NCBI GenBank assembly: GCA_016735235.1
Contig: JAERRW010000027.1
Location: forward strand, 1-40,885
DNA length: 40,885 bases
Direction: 5' to 3'
Source: Sulfurospirillum sp.
Lineage (GTDB): Bacteria; Campylobacterota; Campylobacteria; Campylobacterales; Sulfurospirillaceae
Below the pieces are notes generated by a model. It was not told where the DNA came from. It ran no database searches and was given only the letters and a program-made list of their open reading frames with translations. Position 1 is the first letter of the stretch, and each line of letters opens with the position of its first letter. Positions 8,435 to 22,268 of the stretch are shown one piece after another. The position numbers were made by a program, and so were the translations under genes.

Positions 8435-8717
8435 TTGCTAAACTAAATAGAAGTTTTACAGCAAATAAATCTATAAACTGGAGACTTATTATGAGTATAA
8501 TTGGAGCTAAATCAATACCACCAATTGTAGTAGGAATGTAGTTTCGTATAAATGCATAAACTGGTTCTGTTAAGCGTGCTAGAACTTGCACTATTGGATT
8601 ATAAGGGTCTGGCTTTACCCAAGTAATAAGAGCTGAAATTATTACTACCCAAATATATATATTTAAAATCATGTGAAAAATTTGTGCTATTGCTTCTATG
8701 AGTGTTGATAGTATCAT
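8424..8717 (-). CDS. YggT family membrane protein
   Basis: This is a small protein of about 97 residues with two hydrophobic segments flanking the family motif WV.PDPYNPIVQVLARLTEPVY. YggT proteins are inner-membrane proteins implicated in osmotic tolerance and in cell-division or thylakoid organisation in other groups; the molecular role is unsettled. I chose the ATG at 8717 because AAAGGAG lies eight bases upstream. A longer in-frame start at 8738 would place that ribosome site inside the coding sequence. It lies between gltX and slt in the usual epsilonproteobacterial order. Confidence 0.9.
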   Translation of the reverse strand: MILSTLIEAIAQIFHMILNIYIWVVIISALITWVKPDPYNPIVQVLARLTEPVYAFIRNYIPTTIGGIDLAPIILIISLQFIDLFAVKLLFSLANAI

Positions 8718-8793
8718 TTTACTGTCTCCTTTAACCATGGCAAAGCCCTGGTGAAATTCCTCTCACTGAAGCTTTCACATTGTGAAGAATATT

Positions 8794-10089
8794 TCATTTT
8801 ACTATATCCTTTAGATAATCTTTTATGAGTGGATAAATTTCTGCTAAATTAGGCCCACTCTCTTGACCTGTTAATAAAATTCTTAAAGGCTTAAAAAAAT
8901 TTTTACTTTTAAGTCCACTTTTTTCACTTAAGTATTTTTTAAATTCATCAAACTCTTCAAAATATGGAGCTTTTTTAAATATGGCTTTAAGTACATTTAA
9001 ATTTTCTTGATAATTATCTGAATTTTTTGGTGCAAATATTGTATCTATTTTATCTTTTATTTCTGCTGTTGTGCTACATTGTTGAGTGTAAAGTTTGGCT
9101 AGTTTTCCTATGTTTACACCAGTAAAGCCTATTCGTTTAGAGAGTTCAATATCATCTATTAATTTTATATGTTCACGGTTTATAAATCTTAGTTTATCTA
9201 TATCAAATTGTGCTGGAGATTTTGAGATATTTTTCAATTTAAACCATTCTAGTGCCTCTTTTAAAGAAAAAATTTCTGTAGGAGTTTTATTGCCTAAAAG
9301 AGTTAAATAATTAATAATAGCTTCGGGCATATAACCTTGGTCTAAAAGCCATTTTGCACTACTAACATCATCTCGCTTACTCATTTTTTTACCAATTGTA
9401 TTTAAGATAATAGGTAAATGTGTATATTTTATCTTTTTTTCGTATCCAAGAGATCTTCTTATTAACTCTTGTTTTGGAGTATTTGAAATGTGATCTTCGC
9501 CTCGTATAATATGTGTTACTCCTTGAATCATATCATCAGTTGCACATGCAAAGTTGTATGTCGGATATTTATCTTTTCGCATAATAATAAAACTATCTAT
9601 TTCATCTCCATTAAAATTCATGTCGCCTTTTATTGTGTCTTTAAAAGTTATATTTGTTTGTGGTTTTTTAATTCTTATTGTAAAAGAGAGATTATTATCG
9701 AGTAGCTCTTCTTTACTTACATGTAAACATTTTCCACTATACCTATATGCTTTTTTTTGCTTTTTTGATCTATCTCTTTCATGCTCGAGTGCTTCTTCTG
9801 TACAAAAACAAGCAAATGCTTTTTTTTTATCCATAAGAGATGATGCAAACTGAAGATGATACTTTAAGTTTTTACTTTGATAATAAACATCATCATAAGC
9901 TATACCAAATATAGCCAATATGTCTAATATATCTCTATCTTTTCCCTCTATATTCCTTTTTTTGTCACTATCTTCTATGCGAATTATAAATTTTTCATTA
10001 TTTTGAGTGGCACATATATAATTAAAAATTGCAACTCTTAGGTTGCCTATATGCATATCTCCCGTTGGAGATGGTGCGAATCTATACAT
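8794..10089 (-). CDS. gltX: Glutamyl-tRNA synthetase, probably the GluRS2 (tRNA-Gln misacylating) type
   Basis: This 431-residue class I synthetase has HIGN in place of HIGH at residues 13-16 ([11 protein letters not shown]) and KMSKR near residue 236. It attaches glutamate to tRNA. Campylobacterota carry two GluRS enzymes, and the copy next to yggT and slt (HP0643 in H. pylori, Cj0845c in C. jejuni) is the one shown in H. pylori to charge tRNA-Gln with Glu for later amidation by GatCAB. Position and short length suggest the same here, but substrate choice cannot be read directly. One TTACATGTAA lies in the coding region (9717-9726). Confidence 0.93.
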
Positions 10090-20745: not shown

Positions 20746-20872
20746 TCATATGGACTTTCATACTCCAAACTTTTTAACTTTTTATTAAAATTATATATCA
20801 AAAGAGTAAACATAAGTTTCAATACCTTTTTGTGATTTCACTAAAACAAGTTTTTGTTTTAATAAAAAGAGA

Positions 20873-21247
20873 TTAGCGTTTTTTCTCTTTAAAACATCCA
20901 AGCTCACAATAGGTAACATCTATATTTTTATCTTTTAATGTTCCTCTTACTTTTTCAAATCCAACTCCACCTGCTTGACCTCTTGCATTTTTACATGTAA
21001 TACGGTTTTTGTCATCTAAAAATCGTTTTAACTTATTTTCTGCTCTCATACTGTATGCACCAGTTCCTTTTAAATTTCCAAACTGTCCTAATTGACAATT
21101 TGAAATTCTAATATCTATATCTTTGGCGGTTTGACCCACTTCTCTAATAGAACTTTTACTTTTTGCAGATATTTTATAGGCATCTTCACAATTAAGTTTT
21201 CCCTCTTTATTTAAACTATCTTGTATTAACTCTTTTAAATTAGACAT
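20873..21247 (-). CDS. Small protein with a duplicated Cys...CxLGxFG motif, coupled to fdhD
   Basis: This 124-residue protein is built from two related units of about 40 residues. Unit 1 (about 16-57) has LNCEDAYKISAK, a middle REVGQTAKD, and ends SNCQLGQFG (Cys20, Cys51). Unit 2 (about 80-119) has ITCKNARGQAG, EKVRGTLKD and ends TYCELGCF (Cys85, Cys114, Cys118). I recall similar units in proteins that accompany FdhD or molybdenum-cofactor genes, but no function is established to my knowledge. Its ATG overlaps the fdhD stop by 8 bp, so it is translated with FdhD. It is soluble by sequence. A link to formate dehydrogenase maturation is an inference from this coupling. Confidence 0.75.
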   Translation of the reverse strand: MSNLKELIQDSLNKEGKLNCEDAYKISAKSKSSIREVGQTAKDIDIRISNCQLGQFGNLKGTGAYSMRAENKLKRFLDDKNRITCKNARGQAGGVGFEKVRGTLKDKNIDVTYCELGCFKEKKR

Positions 21248-22031
21248 TTATTCTCTTTGCATGTCGATATATATTCATCTTTTTTCCTCTTACAAAACCT
21301 ACAAGTGTTAAACCAAATTTATCTGCTATATTGACGCCACGGCAAGTTGAGGCAGTTCTTGAAGCGAGTATAGGAATTTGATGTATAACTGCTTTTGCTA
21401 CCATTTCAGAAGAGAGTCTTCCACTTACCATTAAAAAACATTTTGAAATATTTACTCCTGCTAGTTTTGCTTTTCCTATCGCTTTATCTATAGTATTGTG
21501 TTGTGCTATATCTTCTCCTAAAAAAAAAGTCTCTTTATTGAGATAAACTTTAGCTGTATGAACACATCCAGTTCTTTCATAAAGTGGGCATTGTGTATAA
21601 AATTTACTCATCTCTTCAAAAAGCAACTTAGCATCTATGCTAAAATCATCTTTCAAAATAGTAGCGTCAATAGCTAATTTTGATATTTGAGTGCTTGTGG
21701 CTCTACCGCAACCACTTACTATTACACCATCAATATTGAGTCTCTCTATACTCTTTTCAACTACTTTTGCATCTATTTTGACTTGAAATACTTTTGTATC
21801 GACATCAACTAACTCTATTTTTTTTATATCTTTCAAGCTCTTTATGATGCCTTCACTCATAAGATAACCTACCGCTAACTCTTTGAGATCAACAGGAACT
21901 GCCATTAATGAGCCTACTTTTTTCCTGTTTACTATTAATTCTAATTTTATTTCACGAATAACTTCATCTAGAACAGTGAATTTTTTATTATTTTGTATTT
22001 TTGTAACTTCTGTTTGAAAAATAGTTTCCAT
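21240..22031 (-). CDS. fdhD: FdhD, sulfurtransferase for formate dehydrogenase activation
   Basis: FdhD passes sulfur from IscS to the molybdenum cofactor of formate dehydrogenase. Family blocks seen are PVDLKELAVGYLMSEGII, VSGCGRA, the ERTGCVHTA segment, GEDIAQHNTIDKAIGKA, VSGRLSSEMV and ILASRTAST. The expected catalytic loop CxxC has only its first cysteine here (Cys108 in CGRA). I chose the ATG at 22031 (METIFQTEV, 263 residues) because GGAG precedes it; an upstream ATG at 22070 would extend into a hairpin terminator. It is followed by the duplicated-Cys small protein. Confidence 0.93.
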   Translation of the reverse strand: METIFQTEVTKIQNNKKFTVLDEVIREIKLELIVNRKKVGSLMAVPVDLKELAVGYLMSEGIIKSLKDIKKIELVDVDTKVFQVKIDAKVVEKSIERLNIDGVIVSGCGRATSTQISKLAIDATILKDDFSIDAKLLFEEMSKFYTQCPLYERTGCVHTAKVYLNKETFFLGEDIAQHNTIDKAIGKAKLAGVNISKCFLMVSGRLSSEMVAKAVIHQIPILASRTASTCRGVNIADKFGLTLVGFVRGKKMNIYRHAKRINV

Positions 22032-22268
22032 TTTTTCTCCAATAACTAACATAATCATATATAAAAACATGTAAGTTGAAAGATTTTTTACAACCTACAT
22101 GTTAAAGATAAAACTGTTAAATTTTACCATCTTTTTTCAATTTTTTATACCAAGTACTATGGAGATATTTAACCTCATCGTGCTATGAATTGCATTTTCA
22201 ATAGCAATTTTTGCCATGTAAGTATGAGTAAAGAAAAGAACTTTTTCAATATTTTTAGCATTAAATCT
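22032..22268. other. 237-bp gap upstream of fdhD: terminator hairpin and a reading frame that continues past a TAG
   Basis: The part nearest fdhD holds the hairpin at 22058-22103. From 22268 down to 22140 the frame of the neighbouring monooxygenase stays open for 43 codons beyond its TAG and then meets TGA. The read-through peptide (for example VLFFTHTYMAKIAIENAIHS) is not recognisable. It may be the remnant of a longer gene or chance. No other gene is supported here. Confidence 0.4.
22058..22103 (-). terminator. Hairpin with T-run between the monooxygenase gene and fdhD
   Basis: Arms 22066-22078 and 22091-22103 pair over 13 bp with one G-U wobble and a 12-base loop. On the minus strand the stem is followed by TTTTATATAT. 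This fits an intrinsic terminator after the leftward monooxygenase gene, upstream of fdhD. Each arm contains an ACATGT core. Confidence 0.6.

Follow-up and report, generated by a model that had tools for sequence, protein, structure and literature searches.

The window, a stretch of 40,885 nucleotides of Sulfurospirillum sp. DNA, carries on its minus strand an open reading frame (ORF) of 124 codons that starts with ATG and has the sequence ATGTCTAA. The ORF follows directly on fdhD, with which it has 8 bp in common, and the same 8-bp overlap with fdhD is found in the full-length relatives L002, L049 and L053. The open frame of fdhD spans 21240–22070 on the minus strand, with its first ATG at 22070 and a family-like start, METIF, at 22031. 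Upstream of fdhD lies a remnant of fdhC, the last piece of which ends YLHSTWYKKLKKDGKI before its stop, and the genes for formate dehydrogenase (FDH) have been lost. The features of the locus are as follows (an asterisk marks a stop codon).

20840..20872, minus strand: in-frame tether remnant beyond the stop of the truncated ORF, *SLFIKTKTCF against ARLYLKTKTWI in the family
20873..21247, minus strand: truncated ModE-like ORF, an N-terminal tandem four-cysteine domain of 124 aa without a DNA-binding domain
20876..21061, minus strand: repeat unit 2, residues 63–124, with C85 at 20993–20995 and C114 at 20906–20908
21062..21247, minus strand: repeat unit 1, residues 1–62, with C20 at 21188–21190 and C51 at 21095–21097
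21240..22031, minus strand: fdhD, intact (PF02634 E=2.9e-69; NF001943 above cut-off)
22120..22241, minus strand: fdhC remnant, FdhC residues 257–276 and 285–304 in two frames (tblastn with the FdhC of L044, E=2.8e-8)

A reading of the sequence alone had described the ORF as a duplicated cysteine-bearing unit overlapping fdhD by 8 bp, and our analysis bears this out. When the alignments of residues 1–63 and 64–124 of 57 relatives were split and compared with HHalign, unit 1 matched unit 2 with a probability of 97.5% (E=8e-12, 22% identity over 54 columns); the duplication therefore stands, but the unit is ~54–60 residues long rather than the ~40 first proposed. Unit 1 terminates in C-x-LGQFG and unit 2 in C-x-LGCFK. 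Conservation of the cysteines, on which the sequence-only reading depended, is complete, with C20, C51, C85 and C114 invariant in the alignment of 57 relatives (A3) and kept in 33/33 complete members of a set collected by profile and not by motif. Structure prediction, proposed earlier as a check, gave a confident AlphaFold2 model of two similar helical units (mean pLDDT 92; helices at residues 3–10, 20–30 and 34–43 in unit 1 and at 67–74, 85–90 and 97–106 in unit 2), for which Foldseek returned no significant match among solved structures. Sequence searches with the ORF found no match in Pfam, NCBIfam or the PDB, nor any among plasmids; the four-cysteine domain is new to Pfam and NCBIfam, which hold no model of it. 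A winged-helix origin of the repeat units was considered and rejected (HHalign of a unit against the winged helix, E about 0.4).

The domain is present in 39 of 60 relatives searched, in which the open frame is mostly 243–310 aa long as against 124 in the window. Relatives at 57–77% identity have ~245 aa with a winged helix at the C-terminus, and they run on past CFKEKKR for ~120 residues, first as a tether and then as a ModE-type winged helix. The winged helix of full-length relatives matches TIGR00637 with E=1e-19 and 70.5 bits, under the curated cut-off of 98.5, and Pfam searches detected no TOBE/Mop domain in either the window copy or full-length L002. This fused architecture occurs in nearly all of 80 named loci, L127 having the halves as separate genes; an AlphaFold model of the full-length protein, with pLDDT 82 and pTM 0.45, says nothing reliable about how its halves are arranged. 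Since Campylobacter jejuni-type loci (L117 and L118) have the domain beside fdhD, with 44% identity to the window over the domain and all four cysteines kept, we assign the family to the Cj1507c type. The window ORF is thereby shown to be the N-terminal half of a Campylobacterota ModE-like regulator. Two motif patterns, run against 84,980 species and liable to miss divergent members elsewhere, left 80 loci with titles that are all Campylobacterota or Epsilonproteobacteria bar one labelled ‘Proteobacteria’; this lone locus, L108, corresponds to genome G018, of the window's own family.

It follows that the family is not without a described function, as had been thought, and that the window protein is not the intact small partner that had been implied, being a regulator cut down to its front half, in a genome without FDH. 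A passage of PMC7011364, citing Taveirne et al. 2009, describes Cj1507c as ModE-like, as repressing the uptake of molybdate and tungstate (mod, tup) and as lacking a metal-binding domain. Deletion of modE in C. jejuni is reported to abolish FDH activity and complementation to restore it, and a role of ModE in FDH biogenesis beyond repression has been inferred from this (PMC11237541).

Among 150 Campylobacterota genomes we found the domain in 58, FdhA in 99 and fdhD in 74. FDH is encoded by 55 of the 58 carriers (Fisher p=4e-10) and fdhD by 44 of them (p=3e-7), both p-values being optimistic because the genomes are related and not independent; the domain is more tightly associated with the enzyme than with fdhD. 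The expectation that the domain would keep to genomes with fdhD is therefore only partly borne out, as 14 of the 58 carriers lack fdhD, yet 13 of these 14 have FDH. FdhA and the fused ModE-like protein occur together in thirteen genomes, all of one genus, that gave no fdhD in a PF02634 search, and there is an in-frame UGA in each of three FDH loci lacking fdhD, namely L159 (G104), L110 (Campylobacter volucris) and L128. In genome G137 (L158, 3423–4056), which has FdhA, fdhD and the ModE-like gene are both broken, fdhD lying in two frames with a stop and the ModE-like gene being cut to ~40 residues; the Campylobacter genome G131 (L202, 2851–3675) has a full-length ModE-like gene, with neither fdhD nor an FdhA match at the thresholds used.

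The neighbourhood in relatives often includes genes for Mo/W transporters directly downstream of the ModE-like gene. In L127 and in three f9-family genomes (G044, G170 and G177), separate genes lying side by side encode the cysteine half and the winged helix, and an IscS-like gene comes next; in Arcobacter nitrofigilis (G167) the gene between fdhD and the IscS-like gene encodes the cysteine half by itself, no winged helix adjoins it, and a canonical TOBE-bearing ModE is encoded elsewhere in the genome. The IscS/NifS-like protein of these fdhD operons of the Arcobacter group (L031 3740–4729, L156 2024–2992, L157 2866–3879 and L127 1846–2844) is divergent and ~330 aa long; its profile matches E. 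coli IscS with E=3e-10, it scores far below the NCBIfam cut-offs, and by inspection it keeps Lys and Cys at the expected motifs. It is possibly a dedicated desulfurase. NifS-like genes also adjoin fdhD in f9 and f17 genomes without the cysteine domain. In the FdhD alignment the loop is of SGCG type in 101 of 102 sequences accompanied by the four-cysteine domain and SGCC or TGCC in 25 of 30 that are not, a difference that reflects phylogeny and is not independent evidence because the motif changed only once on the tree; we accordingly rejected the active-site motif of FdhD as evidence of complementation.

Gene neighbourhood, co-occurrence with FDH and the published loss of FDH activity support a role of the cysteine half in FDH maturation, with a sulfur chemistry that we infer. 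In the intact family the tandem four-cysteine domain would be a protein-interaction and thiol module acting in the FdhD branch of this maturation. Sulfur would pass from an IscS-like desulfurase to FdhD and on to bis-MGD, the cysteine domain working with the FdhD branch, and fusion to the winged helix would tie repression of Mo/W uptake to the maturation state of FDH. Such a scheme would address the question left by PMC11237541, namely why deletion of a repressor abolishes FDH activity in C. jejuni, and the anatomy of the family offers a testable answer: the half that does not bind DNA may be a maturation factor. The original suggestion of a maturation partner thus survives for the family, through the invariant cysteines, the frequency of fdhD (44/58) and FDH (55/58) among carriers, the stand-alone domain of A. 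nitrofigilis and the C. jejuni phenotype, and is not supported for the window copy, which is truncated and sits in a genome lacking FDH. Against the mechanism as we propose it stand the 13 genomes in which FDH and the fused protein occur without fdhD, as do the NifS-like genes beside fdhD in genomes without the cysteine domain. It is as a tentative proposal, rather unlikely in this specific form, that we put forward the four-cysteine domain as an unrecognised FDH maturation factor placed between an IscS-like desulfurase and FdhD, fused in most carriers to a ModE winged helix, so that one protein would help to build the enzyme and control Mo/W uptake, and living without its DNA-binding half in the window genome and in A. 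nitrofigilis.

The cysteine domain could instead be only the sensor of a transcription factor, responding to molybdate, tungstate or redox state, and the loss of FDH in C. jejuni an indirect regulatory effect. This is a serious possibility, although we lean against it. It would account for the fusion to a winged helix in nearly all members and for the transporter genes so often found directly downstream, and it agrees with the repression of mod and tup described in the passage of PMC7011364. Losing a repressor of Mo/W uptake would not, however, be expected to abolish FDH, for which PMC11237541 invokes a function beyond repression, and in A. nitrofigilis the domain persists with no winged helix beside it in a genome that instead has a canonical TOBE-bearing ModE.

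What happened in the window genome (G000) is best seen against the operon of its relatives, in which the order is fdhA-fdhB-fdhC-fdhD-modE-wtpA-ATPase-permease-yedF-selD, with a UGA codon within fdhA. In G000 fdhA and fdhB are gone and fdhD is intact; searches of the genome found no FdhA. The Mo/W transporter genes are intact on another contig (L043, contig C61). Downstream of the transporter, at about 8650–8890, there are remnants of yedF (18 residues) and selD (43 residues). These two remnants are traces of a lost selenocysteine FDH operon, and together with that of fdhC they still have 60–89% identity to relatives. The ModE-like ORF stops in frame exactly at the domain boundary, where the frame reads KKR*SLFIKTKTC against KKRARLYLKTKTW in relatives. 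With the full-length ModE-like protein of L044 as query, a tblastn match passes the stop and reaches residue 136 at 20840; beyond this tether remnant the sequence is degenerate and lacks ~100 codons, and 139 bp separate the stop of the ORF from the end of the NAD kinase gene. Searches for a ModE-type winged helix found none in G000, the completeness of which is given as 99.95%. This organism has lost the DNA-binding half, most likely through decay of the FDH operon.

We therefore consider it probable that the window ORF, this N-terminal half of a ModE-like regulator, is a vestige of an FDH operon that has decayed, and that in the intact family the cysteine domain works with the FdhD branch. 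This reading is favoured because FDH, the partner enzyme, is gone, so that relic status is inferred from the operon and not from the gene itself. Counting against a relic, nothing in the truncated ORF or in fdhD points clearly to neutral decay. In pairwise comparison with L049, the nearest relative, the truncated ORF has a dN/dS of 0.18 and fdhD one of 0.17, close to the 0.175 of wtpA, an intact control; on the window branch the estimates are 0.22–0.35 (bootstrap 0.09 to above 1), 0.12–0.20 and 0.16–0.34, respectively. As there is no way to date the truncation, and as the remnants have themselves diverged only mildly, such values neither demonstrate continuing constraint nor exclude it. A relic ORF may perhaps still be translated through its coupling to fdhD. 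The window itself illustrates clearly how the FDH operon decays piecemeal.

The same observations can be read as those of a protein still at work, a stand-alone partner of FdhD that now serves another enzyme and has shed a dispensable regulator half. By ORF inspection G000 encodes three other molybdoenzymes, Nap-, Psr/Phs- and Ttr/Soe-like, any of which could be the new client. Consistent with this notion, fdhD and the truncated ORF have stayed open and coupled while fdhC, yedF and selD decayed, their dN/dS resembles that of the intact control, all four cysteines are kept, and a stand-alone version exists in A. nitrofigilis. We nevertheless regard it as unlikely, as FDH was the sole molybdoenzyme with which we saw the family associated, and also the only one covered by the co-occurrence test, and as the extent of identity remaining in the remnants means that the decay may simply be recent. 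That the truncation is an error of sequencing or assembly is highly improbable, for although the genome is a draft in 106 contigs, the lesion involves more than one base, with the tether degenerate, the remaining codons missing and the NAD kinase gene close behind, and no winged helix was found anywhere in the genome.

The closest known counterpart is Cj1507c of C. jejuni; proteins of this type have a winged helix and usually an FDH operon, whereas the window copy has neither. With E. coli ModE (1b9m, 1o7l) the full-length relatives have the DNA-binding domain in common (E=6e-9 to 1b9m). Only the winged helix matches, however, and it is C-terminal in the relatives and N-terminal in E. coli; the relatives gave no match to TOBE/Mop, nothing in ModE corresponds to the four-cysteine domain, and in the window copy the winged helix is missing too. 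The best local Foldseek match to the four-cysteine domain was the N-terminal helical domain of the NuoE/FdsG/NfnC family (9n5v_C; rmsd 1.8 over 48 columns, 27% identity, probability 0.89), which is not significant at an E-value of 0.68 and has no Pfam match to support it. The IscS of E. coli interacts with FdhD and supplies the sulfur for bis-MGD (PMC6239281). FdhD here differs in having SGCG in place of CXXC, and the four-cysteine domain is at most a putative member of such a system; what recalls the E. coli pair is the arrangement of those genes, with fdhD adjacent to the domain in the window and an IscS-like gene in the same operon in G044, G170, G177, G167 and L127.
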